Shown: positions 45,991 to 60,902 of the stretch, one piece after another | Layout: the number at the start of each line of letters is the position of its first letter | Position numbering within the stretch: position 1 is the first letter of the stretch | Assembly (NCBI GenBank): GCA_030622115.1 | Contig: JAUXGN010000009.1 | Span: 1-64,000 of the forward strand | Length of the DNA: 64,000 nt | Source of the DNA: Candidatus Eiseniibacteriota bacterium | GTDB lineage: Bacteria > Joyebacterota > Joyebacteria > Joyebacterales > Joyebacteraceae | Direction of reading: 5' to 3' | The notes under the pieces: model-generated | Databases searched by the model: none | What the model was told of the DNA's origin: nothing | Seen by the model: the letters and a program-made list of their open reading frames with translations, nothing else | Program-made: the position numbers and the translations under genes

Positions 45991-46080
45991 CGTGGGAGTG
46001 TTGGCGCGGAAGCCGCGTGGGTGCTAGAATGGCGGCAAACCAGGAAGGGCGTTGCCGGTCAAGGGTTGGGAGAGCCACCT

Positions 46081-47385
46081 ATGAAGAAGTGGATCGCGAT
46101 TATCCTGATAGCCGTTGTGGTTGTCATTGTCGTTGTGTTCGCGCTACGGCGTGGAGGCGGCGGGGCGGATGCTGAACGCTACGAGTTCGTCAGTGTTGAA
46201 CGGGGCGACCTCGAGAACATCATCACCAGTACAGGTACACTCTCGGCGGTCGGGACCGTGGAAGTGGGAACGCAGGTGTCGGGCAGTGTCTCTCATGTGC
46301 TTGTCGACTACAACCAGGGCGTGACTGCCGGGCAGGTCCTGGCGGTTCTGGACACGACCATGCTATCGGCATCGGTTCGCGACGCTCGCGCTACGGTGAT
46401 GAGGGCGGACGCGCTACGCGAGCAGGCCGGCAGGGATCTTGCCCGCGCGGACGATCTTCTCGACAGCGAGCTCATCAGTGACGCGGAGTTCGAAGACGCC
46501 GGGACGAGTTCGAAATCCGCCGAAGCGTCGCTGCTTTCGGCGGTTGCCTCACTCGATCGAGCGTTGGCGAACCTCTCGTATGCCGTCATCCGATCTCCGA
46601 TCGACGGGACCGTAATCATGAGGAGCGTCGAGCCGGGTCAGACGGTTGCTGCAAGCTTCTCTACACCCACTCTCTTCATTATTGCGGAGGATCTTTCTGA
46701 GATGGAGATCCGTGCGCTTGTTGACGAGAGTGACATCGGTCAGATCAAGGAAGGACAGAACGTTCACTTCACCGTGGAAGCCTATATCGATGAGGAGTTC
46801 GAGGGGACAGTCCGTCAAGTGTGGCTTCAACCGCAGACCGTGCAGAATGTCGTGAACTACACAGTGGTTATAGACGCCGCCAACAAGAGCGGCCTGCTCT
46901 ATCCAGGAATGACGGCGACGGTCGACTTCATGATAGACGAGGTTCGCGATGTGCTGCTTGTTTCGAACGCGGCCCTCCGTTTCCAGCCGAGCGAATCGAT
47001 GATAGAAGAGTTCCGGTCGGCGATGCAGGAGCGCATGAAGGATATGTCGGACTCAGAGCGGCAGGAGATGAGTGCTGAACGCGGAGGAGCACCGGGTGCA
47101 GTGGGGACCGGCGGGCGCGGTTCGCCGGGAGGTGGTCCTGGGATGGGCAGTGGTTCCGGCACGGGAGACGGCAACGCGTTCGGTGACGCGGCTCGGCTGT
47201 GGTACCTCGATGAAGAGGGCAGGCCAAGCGTGGCAAGGGTTCGCACCGGGGCGACCGATGGGCGGGTGACGGAGATCATGGATGGGCGCGGTATCACCGA
47301 AGGTACGAACGCTATCACAAAGGTAAATGAGGACGATTCTTCGGGGAGCTCGAATCCCCTCAGTTCAGCCATAAGGCGCCGCTAG
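46081..47385 (+). CDS. HlyD/MacA-type periplasmic adaptor subunit
   Basis: [63 protein letters not shown]. Confidence 0.93.
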
Positions 47386-47438
47386 CTCTGCACAGGCAGG
47401 GAAGCAACGACGGGTATCCAAGTCGACAGCGAGGCACG

Positions 47439-48143
47439 ATGAGTGCGGTAATCGAAGCATCCGGGATCTCGAAGATCTATCAGATGGGAGAGGTGGAGGT
47501 CCACGCCCTGAGAGGGGTTGATCTGACCGTCGAAGACGGTGAGTTCATTTCTATCATGGGTGCATCGGGCTCCGGGAAATCAACGCTCATGAATGTGCTC
47601 GGTTGTCTGGACCACCCGACCTCGGGTGAGTATCTTCTGAATGGGAGGGATGTCAGCGAACTTAACCCAAACGAGTTTGCTGAAGTACGAAACACCAGAA
47701 TAGGATTCGTTTTCCAGGTGTTCAACCTTCTTCCCAGAACGACGGCTCTCGACAATGTTGAGCTCCCGCTCCTGTACGATCGCACCCGTCGCATAAAGGA
47801 CCCGCGGGCGGAAGCCGTGGCTGCGCTCGAGCGCGTAGGCTTGGCAGATCGGATCACTCACGAGCCTAATCAGCTCTCCGGAGGCGAGCGGCAGCGCGTG
47901 GCGATAGCACGGGCACTCGTAAACAGACCATCGATCATTCTGGCCGATGAGCCGACGGGCAATCTCGACAGCGTCATGTCTCTCGAGATAATGGAACTCT
48001 TCGGCGAACTCAACGCGCAGGGTATCACCATCATAATCGTCACGCATGAGCACGACATTGCTGAAGTCACCAGGCGGATAATCGAGATGAAGGACGGCGC
48101 TATCATCCGGGATGCCGTGAATGTCGGGGGGCAGGCGAAATGA
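47439..48143 (+). CDS. ABC transporter ATP-binding protein (MacB/LolD-type)
   Basis: [56 protein letters not shown]. Confidence 0.97.
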
Positions 48144-49357
48144 GACTGCGCAACCTGCTGAAGATCGCCCTCAAGAGTCTCACCAGGAACAGGATGCGCA
48201 GTCTCCTGACTTCGCTCGGCGTCATTATCGGCGTCGGTGCGGTCATAGTGATGGTCGCCATCGGTCAGGGTGCGCAGGCAGACATCGAAGCGCAGATAAC
48301 ATCACTGGGTGCGAACATGGTGATGATATTTCCAGGCTCATCGTGGTCACGCGGGGTGAGCCATGGAGCGGGCTCGCAGAACCGCCTCACACTCGACGAT
48401 GCGGATGCCATCCGGGAGAGGGCGACCCTCGTCACCGCCGTGTCCACCGAGGTGCGCGTGAACGCGCAGATAATCGGTGGTGACAGCAACTGGAACACCT
48501 CTATTCAGGGGGTCGACCCGGAGTATCAGGAGATTCGGGACTGGTACACCGTGTCGGGCGAGTTTTTCACTGAGAGAGATGTGCGAGCCAAGGCGAAGGT
48601 GGCCGTGCTCGGAAAGACGGTTGCCGACAATCTGTTCCCGGGTTCCGATCCTGTCGGTGAGAGGATAAGGATCAGGAACACACCCTTCAAGGTGGTTGGG
48701 GTTCTCGAGGCAAAGGGACAGTCGGCCTACGGGTCTGACAGGGACGATGTCGTCATGATGCCGTCCACGACGGCACTCTATCGTCTGGCCGGCGGTCGCT
48801 ATATCAGCAGGATCTTTGCTAGCGCCGTGTCGATTGAAGCGTCAGAAGCGGCAGAGGAAGAGCTGACCGCAATTCTGAGAGAAGAGCACAATCTGGAACC
48901 CGGCGAGGAAGACGACTTCCGTGTGCGAAGCCAGGCTGAGTTTCTGGAAACCGCGACCGAGACGTCCCGCGTGATGACACTGTTGCTCGGGGCTGTTGCC
49001 GCCGTCTCGCTCGTGGTGGGAGGCATCGGGAACATGAACATCATGCTCGTGTCTGTGACCGAACGGACGCGGGAGATCGGCATACGTCTCGCCGTCGGCG
49101 CGCGTGGCAGCGACGTTCTGGTTCAGTTCCTGACGGAGGCCGTTGTTCTCGCTCTCGTCGGCGGGACCGTTGGAATCTTGCTGGCCGTCGGAGTTTCTGT
49201 TTTCCTGGATCGTGTCGTCGGCATGACGTCGATCATCTCTCCGGCAATCGTGGCTCTGGCCTTTTGCTTCTCCGGCGCCGTCGGCGTCTTTTTCGGCTAC
49301 TACCCCGCCCGCAAAGCCGCACGGCTCAATCCGATAGACGCGTTGAGGTACGAGTAG
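48140..49357 (+). CDS. ABC transporter permease (MacB-type)
   Basis: N-terminal MacB-like periplasmic region; [52 protein letters not shown]. Confidence 0.96.
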
Positions 49358-49495
49358 GGCGGCGGAGGCGGGGCTTCCACACTCGCTTCAGCCTGGGTGT
49401 ACCCTCGATAACAACCTGTGTGCGTGCGTTTGCCTCAGATTATCGACAAAGCTCTTGACAGGGTTCTAGGGCAATGCTAATGATTCGCATTGGGC

Positions 49496-49513
49496 TTGTG
49501 AATGTGAACACAA
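49496..49513 (+). promoter_or_regulatory. Predicted Rex operator TTGTGAATGTGAACACAA
   Basis: TTGTG-N8-CACAA 18-bp inverted repeat located 25 bp before rex. Confidence 0.75.
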
Positions 49514-49537
49514 TCACTAACTCTGGATGCAAACGCG

Positions 49538-50200
49538 ATGATTGTTGGTTCAGGACACATTCCCAGCGAGACAACTGACCGCCTGTTTTCCTATTTGAGA
49601 CCCCTCATGTGTCTGCTCAATCGAGGGAGCGACACTGTGTCGTCCCGGGAGCTGGCTAGACTTTGCAAGGTGAACCCGTCGGTCATCCGCAGGGACTTCT
49701 CGTACGTCGGGAACTTGGGAACGCGGGGCGTCGGATACGGCGTCGTCGAACTCATGGAGAACATCCGCAGAGCACTGAAGTTCGATGATGACATGAAAAT
49801 AGCGCTGGTCGGCGTGGGGAACATCGGACGGGCGCTGCTCGAGCACGTGAGGTTCGGGATGGAGGGTTTCAAAATAGTCGCGGCGTTCGACAACAATCCA
49901 GAGAAGATCGGGCGGACGGTAGGGCGATTGGTAGTCGAGGACGCGATAGCTCTGGAAGAGAGAATCCAGTCCGAAGCGATTCAGCTGGTCATAGTCGCAG
50001 TACCCGAGATATGTGCCCCTGATGTGGCGAGACGAGTTGGCGACGCCGGTGTGAATTCCGTGCTCTCGTTTTCCCCGTGTGGGCTCGCGATGCCCGACAA
50101 TGTCAGGGTGACGTGCGTTGATTTGAGCTTGGAGATGGCGAGACTCGTGTATCACTCGAGCTCCCGGGATGGGGCGCGGGGCAAGGATGGAGCGGCATGA
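49538..50200 (+). CDS. rex: Redox-sensing transcriptional repressor Rex
   Basis: LARLCKVNPSVIRRDFSYVGNLGTRGVGYGV; Rossmann fold KIALVGVGNIGRALL. Confidence 0.96.
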   Translation: MIVGSGHIPSETTDRLFSYLRPLMCLLNRGSDTVSSRELARLCKVNPSVIRRDFSYVGNLGTRGVGYGVVELMENIRRALKFDDDMKIALVGVGNIGRALLEHVRFGMEGFKIVAAFDNNPEKIGRTVGRLVVEDAIALEERIQSEAIQLVIVAVPEICAPDVARRVGDAGVNSVLSFSPCGLAMPDNVRVTCVDLSLEMARLVYHSSSRDGARGKDGAA

Positions 50201-50718
50201 GCGACACGGCGAACGAACGGACCGGTAGGGCGAGGGACTACTGCTACCTGTTCGTGATGCTCTTCGCGATATGGATGGTTCTGACATCGAGTCTGCAGTG
50301 GCAGGAAGTTATCACCGGCGTTCTCGTCTCCGTTGTTCTGGCTGTCTACCTCGGCAGGACGTACGCCACTCTCGGGATGCCGCCGCTCTCGGTCAAGCGA
50401 ATCGGGTACTTCATCGTCTATCTCGCAGTCTTGTCCATGGAGATCGTGCGCGCCAATTTCGAGGTTGCCTACATTGTGCTGCATCCGAAGCTTCCCATCA
50501 AGCCGGGTGTCGTTGCGGTGAAGACCTGTCTCAAGCAGGACATCGCGAAGACGATACTGGCCAACTCCATCACGCTGACACCCGGGACGTTCACGCTGGA
50601 CATCATTGACGACACACTGCTTGTTCACTGGATCGTTGTGCGGTCGGAGGACAACGAGGAAACCGCGCGACTGATCAGCGGACGGTTTGAGAAATATCTG
50701 AAGGCGGTCTTCGCATGA
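50197..50718 (+). CDS. mrpE: MrpE/MnhE-type cation antiporter subunit
   Basis: SVKRIGYFIVYLAVLSMEIVRANFEVAYIVLHPKLPIKPGVV; ANSITLTPGTFTLDI. Confidence 0.93.
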   Translation: MSDTANERTGRARDYCYLFVMLFAIWMVLTSSLQWQEVITGVLVSVVLAVYLGRTYATLGMPPLSVKRIGYFIVYLAVLSMEIVRANFEVAYIVLHPKLPIKPGVVAVKTCLKQDIAKTILANSITLTPGTFTLDIIDDTLLVHWIVVRSEDNEETARLISGRFEKYLKAVFA

Positions 50719-50975
50719 GCGAGACAGTGATCCTCATCTTCTTGGGCATGATCGGTCTGGGCATAGTGTTGTGTCTGCTGCGTTTTCTGAAGGGGCCGAC
50801 CGCGTCAGATCGGGCGGTTGCCGTGGACACCGCGTGCACGGTGACGACGGCGCTCCTTGTTTTGATGGCACTCTGGTTCCAGCGGCGCATCTATCTGGAT
50901 GTTGCACTGGTGTATGCCGTGTTGATGTTCATAGGGCTCGTGTCGGTTGCCAGATACCTGGAGAGGGGCATATAG
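50715..50975 (+). CDS. mrpF: MrpF-type subunit
   Basis: RFLKGPTASDRAVAVDTACTVTTALLVLMAL; small 3-TM protein. Confidence 0.9.
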   Translation: MSETVILIFLGMIGLGIVLCLLRFLKGPTASDRAVAVDTACTVTTALLVLMALWFQRRIYLDVALVYAVLMFIGLVSVARYLERGI

Positions 50976-51314
50976 ATGGTGCGCGTTGTCGCGGGGACCA
51001 TCGTCAGTGGAATCGGTGTTCTGTTCCTGCTCGTCGGAAGTCTCGGCGTGTTCAGGATGCCCGATGTCTACAACCGACTCCAGGCGGGCACGAAGTGCAC
51101 GACGCTCGGTGCTTGCCTGGCCGCAGTGGGCGTCGGGATCATTGAGCCGCAGTGGTTCTGGAAGACGTTCGTGATCGCACTCTTTATCCTCGTGACGAAT
51201 CCGATATCCAATCATGCTATCGGAAGGGCTTCAAAGAAGAGCGGCGTACCGCTTTGTGACAGAAGTGTTGTGGACGTTACGGAGAACCTCAAGGAGTACG
51301 AAGGCAGATCATGA
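50976..51314 (+). CDS. mrpG: MrpG-type subunit
   Basis: LLVGSLGVFRMPDVYNRLQAGTKCTTLGACLAAVG; TNPISNHAIGRAS. Confidence 0.93.
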   Translation: MVRVVAGTIVSGIGVLFLLVGSLGVFRMPDVYNRLQAGTKCTTLGACLAAVGVGIIEPQWFWKTFVIALFILVTNPISNHAIGRASKKSGVPLCDRSVVDVTENLKEYEGRS

Positions 51315-51550
51315 TTATCTTCGTTTCGCTGCTTGTGCTCATAATGCTCGTCGCCGCAATTGCGGCCCTGATCTTCAGGGACCTCTTGAGCGCGGTGATT
51401 GCATCGTGTCTGGTCAGTCTGCTTGCATCGATCCTGTTCCTGTTCCTGCAGGCGCCGGACGTGGCCATGGCCGAGGCATCGATCGGGGCGGCGCTCATAA
51501 CGGCGGTCTTCGTCATCGCAATCAGGCGAACCGACAGGTACGAAGAATGA
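51311..51550 (+). CDS. DUF4040/MbhD-like subunit (MrpA C-terminal-like)
   Basis: AALIFRDLLSAVIASCLVSLLASILFLFLQAPDVAMAEASIGAALITAVFVIAIRRTDRYEE. Confidence 0.9.
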   Translation: MIIFVSLLVLIMLVAAIAALIFRDLLSAVIASCLVSLLASILFLFLQAPDVAMAEASIGAALITAVFVIAIRRTDRYEE

Positions 51551-52236
51551 GAAGCATCGCAATCATAATTTTGCTCGCTATCGTTGCCGTCGGCATCGGC
51601 GTGGCCCTCATGGCCATTCCGTTCGGCGTGGCCAAGACGCAGGTCGGCGACCACTACACCGAGAGCGGTATCGGTGACACGGGAGCGTCCAACATTGTGA
51701 CGTCCGTCGTCGTCGGCTACAGAGCATTTGACACGCTGGGAGAGATAACAATCCTCTTCGTCGCGGCAATGGGGTTGGGAGCCGTGCTGGCTGGCGGAAG
51801 GAAGCTCGGACAGCGAAGGGACGTCGAGCCGGCGAGCCTCATTCTGCGCACCGGCTGCAGGTTCCTGTTCCCGCTCCTGCTTCTCTTCGGAGCGTACATC
51901 TTCATCCACGGGCATCTCACTCCAGGCGGCGGGTTCCAGGGCGGCGCGGTCATTGCATCCGCGTTCCTGCTCGTCTACCTGAGTTGTCCGGGACGACGGG
52001 TCAGCAAGGTCTGGAGCCAGACAACGGAATCGCTCGGAGCGCTCACCTTCGTGGTGCTGGGACTCGTTGGGCTGACCGTGGGTGGCCACTACTATCTGAG
52101 TAGCTTCATGCCGCACGGTGTCGTGAACGAGCTTTTCAGCGCCGGGATAATCCCTGTGATCTATGTGGCGATCGGGCTCAAGGTCGGATCGGATCTCACG
52201 GGGATCATAGACGGCATGATGGAGGAGACTATATGA
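51547..52236 (+). CDS. mrpB: MbhE/MrpB-like fused subunit
   Basis: GASNIVTSVVVGYRAFDTLGEITILFVAAMGLGAVL followed by LILRTGCRFLFPLLLLFGAYIFIHGHLTPGGGFQGGAVIASAF. Confidence 0.9.
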   Translation: MRSIAIIILLAIVAVGIGVALMAIPFGVAKTQVGDHYTESGIGDTGASNIVTSVVVGYRAFDTLGEITILFVAAMGLGAVLAGGRKLGQRRDVEPASLILRTGCRFLFPLLLLFGAYIFIHGHLTPGGGFQGGAVIASAFLLVYLSCPGRRVSKVWSQTTESLGALTFVVLGLVGLTVGGHYYLSSFMPHGVVNELFSAGIIPVIYVAIGLKVGSDLTGIIDGMMEETI

Positions 52237-52592
52237 GCTTCCTCCAGGACTACGTCTATTACATCGGAGCGTTCGGTCTCGTGCTGATCGGCCTCTTCAT
52301 CATTCTGTCGAGGCGCAACCTGATCAAAGTCATCATCGGACTCAGCATCCTCGATACCGGCATCAACCTGTTCCTGATATCCGTGGGGTACATCAGCAAG
52401 GGGACCGCCCCGATCTTCTCCAAGCCGGGGCTCGTAGCGGAGGACATGGTCGACCCCGTGCCGCAGGCGCTTGTCCTCACATCGATCGTCATCGGCGTCG
52501 CTGTGCTGGCGCTCGCGCTGGCCCTTGCCATGCGACTGCACAAGCTCCACGGCACGCTCGATCTTCGTAAGATAGGGGAGCTGAAATGGTAA
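52233..52592 (+). CDS. mrpC: MrpC/NuoK-like subunit
   Basis: SRRNLIKVIIGLSILDTGINLFLISVGY...DPVPQALVLTSIVIGVAVLALALALA. Confidence 0.94.
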   Translation: MSFLQDYVYYIGAFGLVLIGLFIILSRRNLIKVIIGLSILDTGINLFLISVGYISKGTAPIFSKPGLVAEDMVDPVPQALVLTSIVIGVAVLALALALAMRLHKLHGTLDLRKIGELKW

Positions 52593-54055
52593 GCCCTGTC
52601 CTGCTGATTGTTATTCCTCTGGGGCTCGCCTTCTGTGTGCCTCTGATCGGCATGGTGTCCAAGCGGTTTGCCAGGTTCGTACCGGTTGTCGCGTGTCTCT
52701 TCAATCTCGTGGTCTCGGTGCAGCTGCTTCCTGCAGTATTGAGCAAGCCCATCGTTGTCGATCTTGGAGGGTTTGGCGCGCCGTTTTCCATCAATCTGTT
52801 CGTCGGGCCGGTCGGCATCCTGTTTTCGCTGCTTATCGCGCTCGCCGGGTTTGTGGTGTCGCTCTATGCTCTTGCGTACATTGACAAGGGCCCCACGACC
52901 AGATACCACACGCTCTACCTGCTGCTTCTCGTGGGCGCGACGGGTGTTGTTCTGACCGGCGACGTGTTCAATCTCTTTGTGTTCTTCGAGATACTCTGCA
53001 TATCATCCTACGTCCTCGTCGCGTACCGAGGGGACAAGGACGGCGTCGAATCCGCCGTGAAGTACCTTATCCAGGGGGCGCTCGGGTCCGCGCTTCTGCT
53101 GACGGGGATCGGTCTTCTGTACGGCCTCTTCGGCACGCTCAATATGGCGCACATCGCGGTGCAAGCAGGCTCCGCCGACCCCATTCCACTGTTCGTCGCC
53201 ATGGCACTCATCGTTGTCGGACTTGGTGTAGAAGCGGCCATATTCCCTCTCAACGCCTGGCTTCCCGACGCGCACTCCTCGGCTCCCTCTTCCATCAGTG
53301 CGATTCTCTCGGGCATAGCCATAGAGGTGGGTCTCTATGCCGTTGTCAGAATGGTGTTCACGGTGTTTGGGGCGTCGAGCATGCTGTCCTTCCTCATGTT
53401 CCTCGGCGTGCTGACGCTGCTCGTTGGTGAGCTGTGCGCGTTCGCCCAGAGCAACATCAAGAGGATGCTCGCCTACTCGAGCATTGGACAGATCGGCCTC
53501 ATCATTTTCGCCATCGCGATCGCAACGTCCGGCTCCATCACGGGCGGCTTCTTCCAGCTCGTGAGCCACACGCTCTCGAAAGCGCTGCTCTTTTTGGCCG
53601 CCGGCTACATGATCTACCGCAGTGGATCAATGGACATCTCCTCGCTTGAAGGAATGGGGAAGAGAATGCCGCTGACCGCGTTCGCCTTCGCTGTTGGGGC
53701 GTTCTCGCTCGTGGGACTGCCGCCGTTCGCGGGGTTTCCGAGCAAGCTCCTCATCATACGCGGTGCGCTGGCCGATGGAGGGGCGCTGCTGGCGTTGCTC
53801 GTCGGACTCGTCCTGCTGGGCACGGTCATCGAGGGGGCCTACTTCTTCAGAGTGATCCAGACGGTCTTCTTCAAGAAGGGTGACGGAGAGACTGCTAGAT
53901 GTGAGGCTCCGGCCATCGCCCTTGTGTCCATGTTTGTGCTTGTCGCGCTTATCATCGTGATCGGCGTTTATCCATCGCTCATCATCGGTGTCCTGAATTC
54001 CGCAGCGTCTGAACTCCTGGTGAGGGCAGACTACATCGGGAGGGTGTTAGGATGA
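52586..54055 (+). CDS. mrpD: MrpD/NuoN-like antiporter subunit
   Basis: DVFNLFVFFEILCISSYVLVAY; AIFPLNAWLPDAHSSAPSSISAILSG; KRMLAYSSIGQIG. Confidence 0.95.
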   Translation: MVSPVLLIVIPLGLAFCVPLIGMVSKRFARFVPVVACLFNLVVSVQLLPAVLSKPIVVDLGGFGAPFSINLFVGPVGILFSLLIALAGFVVSLYALAYIDKGPTTRYHTLYLLLLVGATGVVLTGDVFNLFVFFEILCISSYVLVAYRGDKDGVESAVKYLIQGALGSALLLTGIGLLYGLFGTLNMAHIAVQAGSADPIPLFVAMALIVVGLGVEAAIFPLNAWLPDAHSSAPSSISAILSGIAIEVGLYAVVRMVFTVFGASSMLSFLMFLGVLTLLVGELCAFAQSNIKRMLAYSSIGQIGLIIFAIAIATSGSITGGFFQLVSHTLSKALLFLAAGYMIYRSGSMDISSLEGMGKRMPLTAFAFAVGAFSLVGLPPFAGFPSKLLIIRGALADGGALLALLVGLVLLGTVIEGAYFFRVIQTVFFKKGDGETARCEAPAIALVSMFVLVALIIVIGVYPSLIIGVLNSAASELLVRADYIGRVLG

Positions 54056-55908
54056 GCCTCGAACTCCTGATGGTCGTTGCGCTTGGCGGTTCGTTGCTCA
54101 CGTACGTTCTGGGCAGGGTCTCATCAAGGCTCAGGAACGGCTTCGCGGTGCTCGTGTCGCTGGCGCTTGTGGCGATGGTTGCCTCGCTCTACGGCAAAGC
54201 CCTGCACGTTTCTTACTACGAGGACTTCCTCGGTATGTCGCTGGTGCTGAGGGTCAGCGGGCTGTCGTGGCTCTTCGCGATGACCGCATCGACACTCGGG
54301 TGTCTCTCGGTGGTGTTCTCTCTAAGCTACATGAAGGGGAAGGAGCGCACGAGCTTCTACTACTCGATGCTGCTTCTAGTGAATGCGGCGATGCTGGGCG
54401 TAGTGCTTTCCGGCGATCTGCTCTCGCTCTTCATTTTCTGGGAGATCATGAGCTGGTCAACGTTCCTTCTGATCAGCTACAACGGGGGGCCGGCACTCGC
54501 AGCGGGAATGAAGTACTTCGTGATGTCGTTCGTGGGGTCTTTGGCGATGCTGGCTGGCCTGCTGACGGTGTACGGAAGTTTCGGAACGCTCGAGTTCGGG
54601 GGCGTCGCGGCCGGAATGTTATCGGCGTCGCCGGGATACATCCTTGCGATATTCGTCCTGTTCGGCGTGGCCTTCGGCACGAAGAACGCGATCTGGCCGT
54701 TTCACGCATGGCTGCCGCCCGCACATTCAGAGGCGCCCTCACCGTTCAGCGCGATTCTCTCGGGCATACTCATCAAGATGGGGGTCTACGGGTTCCTGCT
54801 CATCATCTTCGTGCTCGTGGGGCTCAGGAACTTCATGGCGCTTGGTGCGGACGGGCTCCCGCTTCATACGGTTCTCTCGATAGTCGGCGCTATCACGATC
54901 CTGTTCCCGACGTTCATGGCGATCATGCAGAACGACGCCAAGAAGCTGCTTGCTTGGTCGACCGTGGCCCAGGCAGGCTACATCATTCTGGGCATCTCGT
55001 TCGGTACGAGTCTGAGCGTCGCCGGCGGTGTGTTCCACTTCGTGAACCACGCTGTGTTCAAGGCGCTTCTCTTCATGGTGGTGGGCACCGTCGAGTACAG
55101 GACCAAGGGCGTGCGTGATCTCGATTCCCTGGGTGGCCTCATCAAGAAGATGCCCTTGACGTTTGCCGTGGCACTCATCGGTGTGTGCGGTCTGATCGGC
55201 GTGCCGCTCACCAACGGGTTCGTTTCGAAGTGGCTTATCTATAAGACACTCATACTGGAGCGGTCTCCGTTCCTGGCTCTCGTCGCGCTCTTCGGCACGT
55301 GGGGGACAATCCTTTACAGCTACAAGTTCCTCCACAACATATTCCTGGGGCAGCTACCCGAGAAGTACAAGGACCTTGAGAGAGCACCCATGACGATGCG
55401 CCTTCCGATGACGGTACTCTCGATCGTGGTCGTGCTGTTCGGGGTTCTGCCGGGCATTCCGCTTAGCGTCATCAACTCGATCGATACCTCGTTCGGGTTG
55501 AAGCCGCTCAACGTGACGTTGTGGGGGCTCGCGTCCGACACGGGCGCTTTGAACACAATCAATATCCTCGCCGCGGTGTTTGCGGGACTGCTCATTGTGT
55601 GGCTGGTTCTCAAGTCCGGAGGCAGGAAGGTGTCTGTCGACCAAGCTGACAACTATGCGGCCGGTGCTGCGATACCGAAAGACAAATACCAGTACTCGGT
55701 CGGCTTCTACGCGCCGCTCACGCGAATGGTCGCTCCGTATCTCAAGGACTTTATGGATTCGTTCTATATGAGGCTCGCCGGGTGGGTCGGCGGTCTCGGG
55801 AGTGGCATCAGACGCATCTACACCGGGTACGTCGGCGATTACGCAATGTACATTGTATTGTTCCTGGCGGCCCTCATATTCGTCCAACTGACGTGGAGTC
55901 CATGGTAA
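54052..55908 (+). CDS. Second MrpD/MrpA/NuoL-like antiporter subunit
   Basis: GDLLSLFIFWEIMSWSTFLLISYNGG; AIWPFHAWLPPAHSEAPSPFSAILSGILIKMGVYG; KKLLAWSTVAQAGYIILG. Confidence 0.94.
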   Translation: MSLELLMVVALGGSLLTYVLGRVSSRLRNGFAVLVSLALVAMVASLYGKALHVSYYEDFLGMSLVLRVSGLSWLFAMTASTLGCLSVVFSLSYMKGKERTSFYYSMLLLVNAAMLGVVLSGDLLSLFIFWEIMSWSTFLLISYNGGPALAAGMKYFVMSFVGSLAMLAGLLTVYGSFGTLEFGGVAAGMLSASPGYILAIFVLFGVAFGTKNAIWPFHAWLPPAHSEAPSPFSAILSGILIKMGVYGFLLIIFVLVGLRNFMALGADGLPLHTVLSIVGAITILFPTFMAIMQNDAKKLLAWSTVAQAGYIILGISFGTSLSVAGGVFHFVNHAVFKALLFMVVGTVEYRTKGVRDLDSLGGLIKKMPLTFAVALIGVCGLIGVPLTNGFVSKWLIYKTLILERSPFLALVALFGTWGTILYSYKFLHNIFLGQLPEKYKDLERAPMTMRLPMTVLSIVVVLFGVLPGIPLSVINSIDTSFGLKPLNVTLWGLASDTGALNTINILAAVFAGLLIVWLVLKSGGRKVSVDQADNYAAGAAIPKDKYQYSVGFYAPLTRMVAPYLKDFMDSFYMRLAGWVGGLGSGIRRIYTGYVGDYAMYIVLFLAALIFVQLTWSPW

Positions 55909-56798
55909 TGCGAATTCTGTGGCTCGTGCTTTCACCGCTCATTGCGCTTGCGGTCGGCCTGTTCTTCCTCGGTCTGTCGAGGAGGGTCATGGCGAGGATC
56001 CACTGGCGTTACGGTCCGCCGCTGTACCAGCCGCTAATCGAGATCTTCCGCTACTTTACCCAGAAGGGTTCGAGCCATGGTGTGCTGTTCGGTTTGGGGA
56101 TCGTCCTGTCGCTGGCGGGTTCGATCGTAGTAATTCTTTTCCTGCCGTTCGGCGGTATCTGTTCGATGAGCGGCTCGGGAGGAATGCTGGTCGTGCTCTA
56201 CATGATGCTCCTGGCGCCGCTCGGGATCGCGCTCAGCGGCGGTGAGGCGGCCAATCCGAATGCCAGCATAGGGATTTCGCGGAAGCTCATGCTCGCACTG
56301 GGGTACGAGCTGCCGTTCTTGCTCATCGTTCTGGCGATCATGACGCACTACGACACGATCTCTCTCGTTGATATCGTGTCGGCCCAGCGTGAGACGGCTT
56401 CAGCCTTCGCTTCATTCCCTCTCGTGCTGTCGGGGATTGCCTATCTGCTCATTCTGCCTGCAATGCTCGGAATGAGGCCATTTGAAGTCGTTCATGCGCC
56501 TCAAGAGATATCATCCGGGCCGATCGCGGAGTACAGCGGGCCGTACCTGGGACTCGTCACAATCCAGCACGCCCTGACCACGTTCATCGGGATATCGCTC
56601 TTCGTGAACCTCGTGTGGGGTGGCGCGGGGAATCCGTTCGTCTTCTTCCTGAAAATGCTGGTCGTGTTAGCATTCGGCCTTTTTGTCAACGCGGCATTCC
56701 CGCGCCTGCGAGTGGAGCAGGCTGTTCGCTACCTCTGGAGATGGCCGACTCTGATCGCTTTCGTCGGGCTGATTCTCGTGGTTACACTGGGGAGATAA
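55902..56798 (+). CDS. NuoH/MbhM-like membrane subunit
   Basis: RRVMARIHWRYGPPLYQPLIEIFRYFTQKG; MRPFEVVHAPQEISSGPIAEYSGPYLGL. Confidence 0.92.
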   Translation: MVMRILWLVLSPLIALAVGLFFLGLSRRVMARIHWRYGPPLYQPLIEIFRYFTQKGSSHGVLFGLGIVLSLAGSIVVILFLPFGGICSMSGSGGMLVVLYMMLLAPLGIALSGGEAANPNASIGISRKLMLALGYELPFLLIVLAIMTHYDTISLVDIVSAQRETASAFASFPLVLSGIAYLLILPAMLGMRPFEVVHAPQEISSGPIAEYSGPYLGLVTIQHALTTFIGISLFVNLVWGGAGNPFVFFLKMLVVLAFGLFVNAAFPRLRVEQAVRYLWRWPTLIAFVGLILVVTLGR

Positions 56799-56801
56799 GG
56801 G

Positions 56802-57359
56802 ATGGATCGGAACCAGCTCACCAAATGGTTCAAGGCGCCCACGAAGATGGCGCACAAGTACTCGCTGCACGCGGTCTACTTCTGCACCGGGTGCGGGGTC
56901 ATCGAGATACCGCCGACGATCACAGCGCGGTGGGACGCCGAGCGGTTCGGAGTGATCCCCGCAGCGACCCCGAGACACGCGAACCTCTTCCTGATCACCG
57001 GGTACGTCTCGGTCAAGACGTTGAGGGCCGTCATCAGGACGTACGAGCAGATGCCGGAACCGAAGTTCACAGTAGGTTTCGGATCGTGTCCGATCAACGG
57101 CGGCATGTACTGGGACTCGTACAACACGATCAATCAGCTGGACAAATATATTCCCATTGATGGCTGGATAGCGGGATGCATGCCTAGACCGGAAGCGATC
57201 TTCGTGGCTGTGACGCACCTGTGGACGCTCATAGACAAAGACATGGCAGACGGCTACAAACGCTACAGGAAGCACTACGCACAGTACCGGGCAAACCAGG
57301 AGCAGGTTCTTGGTGAACTCGAGTGGCCGCCGCTCTTCCAGTCAGAGAGAGAAGGATGA
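56802..57359 (+). CDS. NuoB/MbhJ-like [4Fe-4S] small subunit
   Basis: VYFCTGCGVIEIPPTI...FGSCPINGGMYWDSYN...IAGCMPRPEAI; CxxC spacing as in hydrogenase-type subunits. Confidence 0.93.
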   Translation: MDRNQLTKWFKAPTKMAHKYSLHAVYFCTGCGVIEIPPTITARWDAERFGVIPAATPRHANLFLITGYVSVKTLRAVIRTYEQMPEPKFTVGFGSCPINGGMYWDSYNTINQLDKYIPIDGWIAGCMPRPEAIFVAVTHLWTLIDKDMADGYKRYRKHYAQYRANQEQVLGELEWPPLFQSEREG

Positions 57360-57916
57360 ACGATTCTCCGATGAACGGACAGCTCAAGAAGAAACTCGAT
57401 TCGGTCTTTCGGGACATAGAGACCGACGTGTCGGATGACGGTCGGCTTACGATACACGCCACGAAGGAATCGGTCCTGACCGTGCTGAGTCTGCTCAAGG
57501 ATGAGGGGTGGAGCTTCCTTCAGCTGGTTTCGTGCGTGGACTGGATCAAGCAGGACGAGATCGAGATCGTCTATGTCCTGTCGTCCTACGTTGGAGTGGA
57601 GGACGGCCCGGACGCGAAGGGTGAGCCGTACGCGAAGGGTGAGCCGGACGCGAAGAGGGAGAGCATCCTGCTGAAGACGCGCCTCCCGCGTTCGGAACCG
57701 AGTGTCCTCACGGCGATTCACGTTTTCGCGAACGCGGAGCCGTACGAGAGGGAGATCCACGAGCTGTTCGGGGTCCATTTTGAAGGCCACCCCAGACTGA
57801 CTCCACTCTTCCTCGATAGAGAGTACAAGATCCCGCCGTTCAGGAAGGACTTCGACACCGAGCAGTACGTCAAGGATGTCTTCGACAGCGTTCCGCCAAT
57901 TGATGAGGAAAGCTAG
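57356..57916 (+). CDS. NuoC/MbhK-like 30 kDa subunit
   Basis: GWSFLQLVSCVDWIKQDEIEIVYVLSS...ANAEPYEREIHELFGVHFEGHPRLTPLFLDRE. Confidence 0.92.
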   Translation: MNDSPMNGQLKKKLDSVFRDIETDVSDDGRLTIHATKESVLTVLSLLKDEGWSFLQLVSCVDWIKQDEIEIVYVLSSYVGVEDGPDAKGEPYAKGEPDAKRESILLKTRLPRSEPSVLTAIHVFANAEPYEREIHELFGVHFEGHPRLTPLFLDREYKIPPFRKDFDTEQYVKDVFDSVPPIDEES

Positions 57917-57922
57917 GAATCC

Positions 57923-59020
57923 ATGAGAGAACTCGAACTCTATTTCGGTCCTCAGCATCTGGGTATGGTCGGCAATCTGAGCATCACGTTGACGGTCGAA
58001 GGCGACCGCGTCGTGAACGCCGCGATGAACCCGGGGTATCTGCACAGGGGCTTCGAGAAGCTCATGGAACAGCGCAGCTGGATCAAGAACTTCCCGATGG
58101 TGTGCAGGATGAACATCCTCGACCCTGATTCCATGGAGATGATCTACGCCATGGCGGTGGAGAAGCTGGCAGGGATCGAGGTTCCGGAGAGAGCGCATTA
58201 CATACGCAGCATCTATCTGGAACTCGCTCGCGCCGGGTCGCACCTCTTCGGTCTGTGGGCGTATTCGAACATGCTGGGTTTCGACACCGTCGCACAGTGG
58301 GCGATGTATCATCGCGACCTCATTCTCGATCGGTTCGAGGAACTCACCGGCGGCAGGGTGTATCACATCTACATCTGGCCGGGCGGCGTGCGGAGGGATT
58401 TCCCGGAGGGGTTTGAGGACAGGCTGGTGTCCACGCTTCATTCCATCGGAGGCTGTGTTCCGGACTACGATGCTACGTTTTTTAACAACCGGCTCTTCGC
58501 GGACAGGGCGCGGGGCATAGGCGTCGTCACGAGAGAAGATGCTCTGGCGATGGGTGCGGTGGGGCAGGTTCTGAGGGCGACGGGCGTGGACGACGATGTT
58601 AGAAAGATCGATCCGTACGCGGCGTATGACAAGGTGCCCTGGGACGTTCACACCAGTGAGGACGGCGATGCGTACTCGAGGGTTTGGATCGTCCGGAATG
58701 AGATGATCGAGAGCGTTCATATGATCTTCAAGCTCTTGGACGCGATGCCCAAGGGTGAGGTATACAACAGGATCCCGAACCCGTTCAAGTGGCGCATTCC
58801 AGAAGGCGAGACGTACGTGCGCTGCGAATCATCGCGTGGGGAACTCGGGCTGTATCTCGTGAGCGACGGTGGGGACAAGCCGTACCGGGCGCATTTCAGG
58901 ACACCTTCCTATACGCATGGACTCACGATCCTCGAGAAGGCGCTCAAGGGAGCGAGTATCTCCGACGTGGGCAATATCATGATGAGCCTCTACGTCGTGG
59001 CCCCGGAGATAGACAGGTAG
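57923..59020 (+). CDS. NuoD/MbhL-like large subunit without NiFe cysteine motifs
   Basis: FGPQHLGMVGNLSITLTVEGDRVVNAAMNPGYLHRGFEKLMEQRSWIKNFPMVCRMNILDPDS...SSRGELGLYLVSDGGDKPYRAHFRTPSYTHG...LYVVAPEIDR. Confidence 0.94.
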   Translation: MRELELYFGPQHLGMVGNLSITLTVEGDRVVNAAMNPGYLHRGFEKLMEQRSWIKNFPMVCRMNILDPDSMEMIYAMAVEKLAGIEVPERAHYIRSIYLELARAGSHLFGLWAYSNMLGFDTVAQWAMYHRDLILDRFEELTGGRVYHIYIWPGGVRRDFPEGFEDRLVSTLHSIGGCVPDYDATFFNNRLFADRARGIGVVTREDALAMGAVGQVLRATGVDDDVRKIDPYAAYDKVPWDVHTSEDGDAYSRVWIVRNEMIESVHMIFKLLDAMPKGEVYNRIPNPFKWRIPEGETYVRCESSRGELGLYLVSDGGDKPYRAHFRTPSYTHGLTILEKALKGASISDVGNIMMSLYVVAPEIDR

Positions 59021-59048
59021 CCGTTCAGCCAGGGAGAGAACGAGAACA

Positions 59049-60902
59049 ATGGCCAAAGGCAGTCTGCTCAGTTCGCTCAAGGTAGCCAGGTTTCTCTTTA
59101 GGAAGCCCAAGACTCTCAGGTATCCGTTCGAGAAAAAGGAGCCCGCTCTGAGGTACAGGGGCTTCCACCTGAACGACTGGGACACGTGCACCGGATGCGG
59201 GAACTGCGCGGACATCTGCCCGAACACGGCGATAGAGATGGTCGAAGTGCTCGATCTCGAGGTCGGGCCGGGTGAAAAGAACGAACGGCCCAAGCTCGAC
59301 TACGGCAGGTGCTGCTTCTGCGGTCTGTGCATCGATATCTGCCCACCGGGTTCACTCAGGCTCTCCAGGGACTACTTCCATACCCACTTCAATACGGACA
59401 CCTTCGTCTTCGTGCCGAAGGATGAGAAGAGCGACGAGGAGACGTTTCTCCCGGCCGAGAACTACTCGATTCTGAAGGCGAGCCTCACGCACCGGAAACG
59501 GGACTACGAAGGCTTCTCGTCCGACCTCTCGTACGCGCTCTTCGAGCCCGAGCGCGTTCCCATGCCTGAGGTTCCGCCCGCGGAGAGGACGCTTTCCTTC
59601 GTCGAACAGGTCATCGGCTACGACAGGGAACAGGCGGTGCGCGAGGCCGAGCGGTGTCTGGAGTGCCGGCTCTGCGAGGAGGCCTGCCCGGCTCACATGA
59701 AGATCTCGGACTACATTGGGGCCATCTATAACGGCGAGCCGGAGGAGTCACTCCGGAAGATATACGAGGACAACCCCATTCCGTCGATCTGCGGACGCGT
59801 CTGCATGAAGCACTGCGAGGACGCGTGCTCGCTCAGATTGAGGGGTGAGCCGCTGGCGATCAGATGGCTCAAGAGGTATGTGGCCGATACGATCCAGGAC
59901 TTCAAGTCGACTCTCGAGCAGCAACCGGGCGAGCCGACCGGGAAGAAGGTGGCGGTCATCGGAGCGGGCCCCGGAGGGCTATCGGTGGCGTATTTCTTGA
60001 GGCTCATGGGCGACGACGTCGTTGTGTTCGACGAGCTTTCTGGTGGCGGTGGTGTGATACGCATTGGGCCGCCCAGGTACAGGCTGCCCCTGGCGAGCAT
60101 CGAGAAGGATGCGGATCATGTTGCATCACTCGGTGTGGAGTTCCGGTACAACACGAAGGTGGGAACGGACGTGCGTTTCCAGGAGCTGCTCGATGAGTAT
60201 GACGCGGTCTATCTCGGCATCGGTCTGACCGTGAGCCGCTCCACGAGAGTTGAGAATGCGGACAAGTGCCGGCTTGCGCTTGACTTCCTCAGGAAGAACA
60301 AGACGGAGTCCATGAGCAAGGTCACGGAAGAGGTCATCGTGATCGGTGGCGGCAACGTGGCGATGGATGTCGCGAGGGAGGCCCTCAGACTTCAGCACAT
60401 GCAATACCCGGGGGAGAAGGTCGTAACGCGCATGGTCTCGCTCGAGGACTGGGACGAGATGCCCGCGACCGAGGAGGAGATAGAAGAGACACGGGAAGAG
60501 GCCGTCGAGTTCAATCCCGCATGGGGTCCGAAGAAGGTCCTGCTCGACGACGACGGCAACGTGAGCGGACTCCTGTGCATGAAGGTGAAGTCCGTGTTTG
60601 ATGATGAGGGGAAATTCGCACCCACGTTCTTCGAGGACCAGGAGATGGTGCTCAAGGGAACGACCATCATCGAGGCCATCGGACAGGGATCGGATTTCTC
60701 ATTCATCCCCGAAGATATGCTCACGAAACTCCGATTCAATGAGATGCGAAAGGTCAGCGTTGACGAGAACGGCATGACCTCGCTCCCGGGGATCTTCGCC
60801 GGAGGAGACATCGTCAACACGAACCTGGATGCAGTCACCGCGATTGCCGATGCCAAGATAGCCTCGGAAGGCATCCACAAGTGGATGACCCGCTCCCGGT
60901 AG
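59049..60902 (+). CDS. NuoI-like 2x[4Fe-4S] ferredoxin fused to GltD/NfnB-like NAD(P)H-flavoprotein
   Basis: CTGCGNCADICPNTAIE and CCFCGLCIDICPPGSL; CLECRLCEEACPAHMKISDYI, CGRVCMKHCEDAC; VAVIGAGPGGLSVAYFLRLMGDDVVVF; VIVIGGGNVAMDVAREA; GIFAGGDI. Confidence 0.95.
   Translation: MAKGSLLSSLKVARFLFRKPKTLRYPFEKKEPALRYRGFHLNDWDTCTGCGNCADICPNTAIEMVEVLDLEVGPGEKNERPKLDYGRCCFCGLCIDICPPGSLRLSRDYFHTHFNTDTFVFVPKDEKSDEETFLPAENYSILKASLTHRKRDYEGFSSDLSYALFEPERVPMPEVPPAERTLSFVEQVIGYDREQAVREAERCLECRLCEEACPAHMKISDYIGAIYNGEPEESLRKIYEDNPIPSICGRVCMKHCEDACSLRLRGEPLAIRWLKRYVADTIQDFKSTLEQQPGEPTGKKVAVIGAGPGGLSVAYFLRLMGDDVVVFDELSGGGGVIRIGPPRYRLPLASIEKDADHVASLGVEFRYNTKVGTDVRFQELLDEYDAVYLGIGLTVSRSTRVENADKCRLALDFLRKNKTESMSKVTEEVIVIGGGNVAMDVAREALRLQHMQYPGEKVVTRMVSLEDWDEMPATEEEIEETREEAVEFNPAWGPKKVLLDDDGNVSGLLCMKVKSVFDDEGKFAPTFFEDQEMVLKGTTIIEAIGQGSDFSFIPEDMLTKLRFNEMRKVSVDENGMTSLPGIFAGGDIVNTNLDAVTAIADAKIASEGIHKWMTRSR

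Follow-up and report, generated by a model that had tools for sequence, protein, structure and literature searches.

A rex-led MBX/MBS-type operon of a Candidatus Eiseniibacteriota bacterium and its possible role in NADH-dependent sulfane-sulfur reduction

The sulfane reductase MBS is regarded as an evolutionary step between hydrogenases and respiratory complex I, and the enzyme that has been studied is archaeal and ferredoxin-driven. In this complex, residues C28, C93 and C123 of MbsJ hold the proximal cluster, the loop being shorter than in hydrogenases, and the cluster has been proposed to reduce polysulfide directly, that is, to act as the catalytic site; coupling in the superfamily has been proposed to run through the J-cluster chamber (PMC7684303). 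Mutagenesis found C25, C85 and C385 to be dispensable, C85 and C385 not being needed for polysulfide reduction, and MbsL is devoid of the quinone-site His and Tyr of complex I (PMC7684303). In bacteria, a 13-gene unit of Thermotoga maritima encodes MBX, an MBS homologue and proposed ferredoxin user whose mbx genes are induced 4.36-fold by S0 (PMC9431562), and an "Mrp-Mbx" complex of putative function has been named in the sulfur-oxidising gammaproteobacterium Endoriftia (PMC11636981). Here, we analysed an operon of this already known kind, an MBX/MBS-type, Mrp-linked relative of complex I, located at 49538-60902 of a 64,000-nucleotide stretch of a Candidatus Eiseniibacteriota genome (GenBank assembly GCA_030622115.1, contig JAUXGN010000009.1, positions 1 to 64,000; the whole stretch is hereafter called the window).

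With about even confidence, we read this operon as coding for an Mrp-linked, ion-pumping NADH:sulfane-sulfur (polysulfide) oxidoreductase, with possible ferredoxin input and with pumping of H+/Na+. ORF calling and family searches delineated rex and 13 further genes, all 14 ORFs running in one direction and following each other mainly with 4-bp overlaps, or else with gaps of a few bases. Their domains are, in order, Rex, MNHE, MrpF, MrpG, MbhD, an MbhE+MnhB fusion, MrpC/Oxidored_q2, two Proton_antipo_M, NADHdh, Oxidored_q6, Complex1_30kDa, Complex1_49kDa and NuoI-GltD, which agrees for every ORF with the gene-by-gene assignment of the original prediction. The features are as follows.

49455 to 49484, plus strand: sigma-70-like promoter, TTGACA-N18-AATGAT, 10 of 12 consensus matches
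49496 to 49513, plus strand: putative Rex operator TTGTGAATGTGAACACAA, an exact TTGTG-N8-CACAA just downstream of the promoter-like site
49538 to 50200, plus strand: rex, redox-sensing (NADH/NAD+) repressor; Rex models 209-212 bits, PF06971
50197 to 50718, plus strand: MrpE-like subunit (MbsA position); PF01899, 1.6e-41
50715 to 50975, plus strand: MrpF-like subunit (MbsB position); PF04066
50976 to 51314, plus strand: MrpG-like subunit (MbsC position); PF03334
51311 to 51550, plus strand: MbhD/MbsD-like subunit; PF13244
51547 to 52236, plus strand: MbhE-MrpB fusion (MbsE); PF20501 and PF04039, best PDB match 6u8y_E, 195 bits versus 73
52233 to 52592, plus strand: MrpC/NuoK-like subunit (MbsG); PF00420
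52586 to 54055, plus strand: antiporter-like subunit MrpD/MbsH (PRK08377 type); PF00361, PRK08377 467 bits
54052 to 55908, plus strand: second antiporter-like subunit MbsH' (PRK08668 type); 6u8y_X 279 bits versus 210, full length, PRK08668 514 bits
55902 to 56798, plus strand: NuoH/MbsM-like membrane anchor; PF00146, 6u8y_M 198 bits versus 67 for MbhM
56802 to 57359, plus strand: NuoB/MbsJ-like subunit with MBS-type three-Cys proximal [4Fe-4S] motif; 6u8y_J 219 bits versus 119 for the best complex I-type chain
57356 to 57916, plus strand: NuoC/MbsK-like subunit; PF00329, 1.6e-27
57923 to 59020, plus strand: NuoD/MbsL-like large subunit; 6u8y_L 323 bits versus 247 for Nqo4 and 154 for MbhL
59049 to 60902, plus strand: NuoI-GltD fusion (PRK13984); best family PRK13984, 669 bits

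Each of the core subunits that were compared with the PDB, five in all (L, J, M, H' and E), had Pyrococcus furiosus MBS (6u8y) as its best match, ahead of complex I and hydrogenase. In a tree of the large subunit L, with complex I (Nqo4) and the host NiFe hydrogenase as outside rows (statements on the host genome, here and below, rest on targeted searches), the window sequence fell inside the MBX/MBS group with a support of 96/94. A complete Mrp set together with H', M, J, K, L and N, the trait of this family, is present within the one operon. The Mbx-type Mrp-plus-Nuo complex of the original prediction is thus borne out by family matches, gene set and L tree, and the comparison of syntenic operons that it had proposed showed the order E-F-G-D-E/B-C-D-H'-M-J-K-L-N to be kept across phyla. 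Comparison with the genome G013 indicated purifying selection (dN/dS ~0.07-0.15 for J, L, N, M and H'); of six genes that were compared, J has changed least (dN 0.065).

With complex I (Nqo4/Nqo6), the window operon shares related J, L, H and antiporter subunits and, presumably, the coupling, but it contains no NuoE/F/G, lacks the quinone-site residues (His38/Tyr87) and has non-adjacent J cysteines. With P. furiosus MBS (PDB 6u8y, PMC7684303), it has in common the subunit set, the Mrp module, the J three-Cys motif and the absence of the quinone His/Tyr; in contrast, a NuoI-GltD fusion stands where the archaeal enzyme has a ferredoxin-type MbsN, MbsL C85 and C385 are N and V, and the operon is also rex-led. 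MbsL of 6u8y lies on a long branch nested among bacterial MBX rows (near L051), a hint, uncertain given that branch, that archaeal MBS might derive from a form with a GltD module. T. maritima MBX (PMC9431562) is likened to the window by family type, not by residues, the PRK13984 fusion type being common to both, as a control search in T. maritima found. The Endoriftia complex (PMC11636981) is of the same named type, whereas the related loci from such sulfur-oxidising gammaproteobacteria (L063-L109) form a clade different from that of the window and keep C85 and C385.

The original prediction held that the redox reaction was not defined by known motifs. Subunit J, however, carries FCTGCG-GSC-GC, the MBS-specific three-Cys signature of the proximal cluster. 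Its cluster ligands C31, C96 and C126 correspond to MbsJ C28, C93 and C123, and its C28 to MbsJ C25; the loop is of the short MBS type, while the host hydrogenase has a longer one. The three ligands were invariant wherever readable in ~80 loci, while the C25 equivalent was Gly in 33. The view of a redox site undefined by known motifs is therefore not supported, and the original interpretation holds only in part: the MBS catalytic motif is kept in J, and the puzzling residues of L are not the defining ones. Assignment to a characterised clade with the same active-site residues, an outcome that had been envisaged, holds for J; L, although it too belongs to the MBX/MBS group, has altered residues and forms a long branch of its own.

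On the donor side, the NuoI-GltD subunit, which the original prediction left unweighed, is the most informative clue. It combines two [4Fe-4S] motifs of NuoI type and two of GltD/NfnL type with an FAD site and a nucleotide site; its N-terminal third matches MbsN (103 bits), again in preference to complex I or hydrogenase, and the remainder NfnL/GltD, and its AlphaFold2 model (pLDDT 84.6) has NfnL 5jca_L as best fold match. All 16 [4Fe-4S] cysteines are invariant across the loci compared, and the fusion was found in nearly all of the 80 related loci in which that end of the operon is present. Two classes of nucleotide site occur across the family: 28 loci have YRRR, and 39 rows have (S/A)LE accompanied by an insertion, a distribution that takes three changes on the tree. 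The window protein has SLE, E466 standing in the model just after strand 459-464, at the tip of the second Rossmann strand; YRR is found in all five of its closest PDB homologues. An acidic residue at this tip is a classical sign of NADH preference, and the YRRR class appears NADPH-like and the (S/A)LE class NADH-like by sequence.

GltD-type modules fused or docked to Fe-S chains for NAD(P)H electrons are known, as in the window, from StnABC and NfnL (PMC10482914; 5jca, 8oh5), which differ in binding NADPH and in having YRR in place of the SLE of the window; the window operon has no gene for an NfnS or StnAB partner. The GltD domain of StnC offers a structural precedent in which NADPH electrons are passed in a straight line, with no bifurcation (PMC10482914). 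The combination that marks Nfn-type bifurcation (NfnL with an NfnS partner, and a Glu-ligated FAD-proximal cluster) is not seen here. As the operon has no NfnS-like gene and the fusion has an extra, invariant cysteine (Cys248) at the position of an NfnL Thr, linear transfer is more likely than bifurcation.

For substrate, NADH preference, direction and coupling, we infer a scheme in which the last subunit would oxidise NADH at the FAD in its GltD half, single electrons then passing through the two GltD-type and the two NuoI-type [4Fe-4S] clusters to the three-Cys proximal cluster of J, which would reduce polysulfide in the J/L/M chamber. As in P. furiosus MBS, this redox step would drive the translocation of H+ and Na+ by the Mrp module and both antiporter-like subunits; the NuoI half, a homologue of MbsN, may be an additional entry point for ferredoxin. 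In MrpD/MbsH (52586-54055), Glu takes the place of the usual TM7 Lys, and the TM8 Lys is Glu or Gln in most members of the subclade of L described below; the second antiporter subunit (MbsH') of the window retains its Lys residues.

The full MBS gene set, the match of the NuoI half to MbsN and the greater driving force that ferredoxin would provide also suit a sulfane reductase that depends on ferredoxin, as archaeal MBS does, and for which NAD(P)H is only a side donor or regulator; we consider this unlikely, given that nearly all bacterial loci examined have conserved the GltD half together with its sites for FAD and nucleotide. Somewhat less likely again is a ferredoxin:NAD(P)+ oxidoreductase, in which reduced ferredoxin docks on the NuoI half, electrons exit via the GltD FAD to NAD(P)+ with ion pumping, and J/L is a structural relic. 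Such a reaction would fit an MbsN-like NuoI half joined to an Nfn-like GltD domain, and Mbx was formerly described as a ferredoxin:NADP+ oxidoreductase (quoted in PMC6349859); yet J/L would be bypassed, although the cluster ligands in J do not vary and no other gene compared is as conserved as J, the host already has an Rnf-type RnfC, and the coupling proposed for the superfamily goes through the J-cluster chamber (PMC7684303).

To return to the NADH:polysulfide reading, the regulator conforms to it in that the NADH-type site (E466) agrees with Rex control: Rex would repress the operon at low NADH/NAD+ and release it when reductant accumulates. The start that the original prediction gave to the operon, 49496, is exactly base 1 of the Rex operator. 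In the 2.63 Mb host genome, exact TTGTG-N8-CACAA occurs at 2 sites, and the window rex is the single PF06971 match. The second site, TTGTGATGGGGATCACAA (C5:107135-107152), was not taken as a Rex operator, as it is a CRP-like palindrome upstream of a surface-protein-like ORF. Among 113 loci, the exact operator was present, besides the window, only in L027 and L041, in both cases adjoining a rex-led copy of the operon. Sites like the promoter at 49455 to 49484 number five in the region versus 4.0 expected by shuffling, and are weak evidence alone. Genes that recur beside related operons also include rex.

The large subunit of the window has the motifs GPQHLGMVG, FPMVCRMN and VVAPEIDR, as had been quoted, and the reported loss of the complex I quinone-site His and Tyr stands. 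No CxxC is present anywhere in L of the window or of its 12 close relatives (13/13); the two CxxC of group 4 [NiFe] hydrogenases are thus lacking, as the original prediction had it, and a NiFe site elsewhere in L was rejected. These 13 sequences form a subclade with 100/100 support, in which C85 is always N and C385 is V or T (N64 and V359 in the window). Elsewhere, C85 is kept in 69/73 and C385 in 67/73 L sequences, and we treated both as typical of MBX/MBS but not defining, since they are not needed for catalysis; a second small MBX group (L099, L106, L110, L111, L113) has also lost one or both. The loss of both remaining MbsL cysteines in the subclade and the two cofactor classes of the fusion look new: we found no description of either in openly accessible papers, subscription literature being outside the scope of the search. 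Labels of the metagenome-assembled genomes (MAGs) in the subclade include Sumerlaeota, WOR-3, Stahlbacteria, Bipolaricaulota, Neomarinimicrobiota, Bacteroidales and Thermoplasmata, a scatter over phyla that suggests lateral spread or some misbinning. The same two explanations apply to L035, a member from a MAG labelled as a Thermoplasmata archaeon. In the host's own family, genome G008 (L029) has instead the other MBX type (YRRR, C85/C385), its fusion-protein match being interrupted by a stop codon.

Apart from the window gene, the only 49-kDa-type gene in the host is that of the NiFe hydrogenase, an Mrp-Mbh-type group 4 enzyme with RICGIC and DPCYSC (contig C32, L025, 1-13755), which stands in line with molybdopterin formate-dehydrogenase-like, FNR-like and ferredoxin-like proteins. 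Neither MqnA/D nor MenD was found, only these two menaquinone routes having been tested and other quinone genes not searched. A quinone acceptor was rejected on the absence of the site residues and of both tested routes; the host being without the tested menaquinone genes and without complex I argues against it. The host gene set is consistent with an anaerobic life in which reductant leaves as H2 or sulfide and no quinone is involved. An NSR/CoA-disulfide-reductase-like gene, a possible partner in sulfur reduction, lies in two pieces at contig ends (C6:24-1052 and C3:14-658).

Several points weigh against an NADH:polysulfide oxidoreductase. By established potentials, the span between NADH and polysulfide is small, which limits pumping; no sulfur gene adjoins the operon in the window, and the recurrent neighbours of related operons gave no sulfur marker; and the NADH preference is a prediction from sequence and a ligand-free model. 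To our knowledge, the subclade has no characterised member, and its L stem, 0.98 changes per site long and marked by 14 clade-specific substitutions, means that the substrate may have shifted. That the subclade kept the architecture but remodelled the L chamber for an acceptor other than polysulfide, as the fully supported long stem, these substitutions and the loss of both MbsL cysteines (N64, V/T359) could indicate, nevertheless seems improbable: J retains its catalytic motif, MBS can do without the lost cysteines (PMC7684303), and the second small group has lost one or both as well. Reverse operation, in which sulfide/persulfide would be oxidised and the ion gradient spent to make NAD(P)H, has in its favour that homologues are frequent in sulfur-oxidising gammaproteobacteria (Thiodiazotropha, Sedimenticola), but is very improbable, as Rex control and the host's Mbh-type hydrogenase and Rnf point to reductant disposal.

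More tentatively, and at rather less than even confidence, the preferred reading may be widened: the complex could be a quinone-free functional counterpart of complex I, taking NADH electrons via a GltD/NfnL-type module and not NuoEFG, and ending in sulfur chemistry on a three-Cys [4Fe-4S] cluster, within a family split into NADH and NADPH users by the strand-tip motif and with the window subclade, horizontally spread, without the last MbsL cysteines. If so, the widespread bacterial NAD(P)H form would be the missing NADH-coupled, quinone-free version, with an NADH-linked regulator, and a sulfur-reducing branch would independently have lost all four NiFe cysteines too, a loss regarded as a mark of complex I. 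The YRRR versus (S/A)LE split offers a simple mutational test of cofactor use.

As to neighbouring genes, named by eye, in 15 loci (L061, L063-L109) the operon is followed directly by a ferritin/rubrerythrin-like gene, and in 10 a dihydroorotate-dehydrogenase-like gene lies beside it, mostly upstream in Bacteroidales. In the window itself, a MacAB-like efflux set (membrane fusion protein, ABC ATPase and FtsX-like permease; 46021-49357), also read by eye, is located just upstream of the operon.

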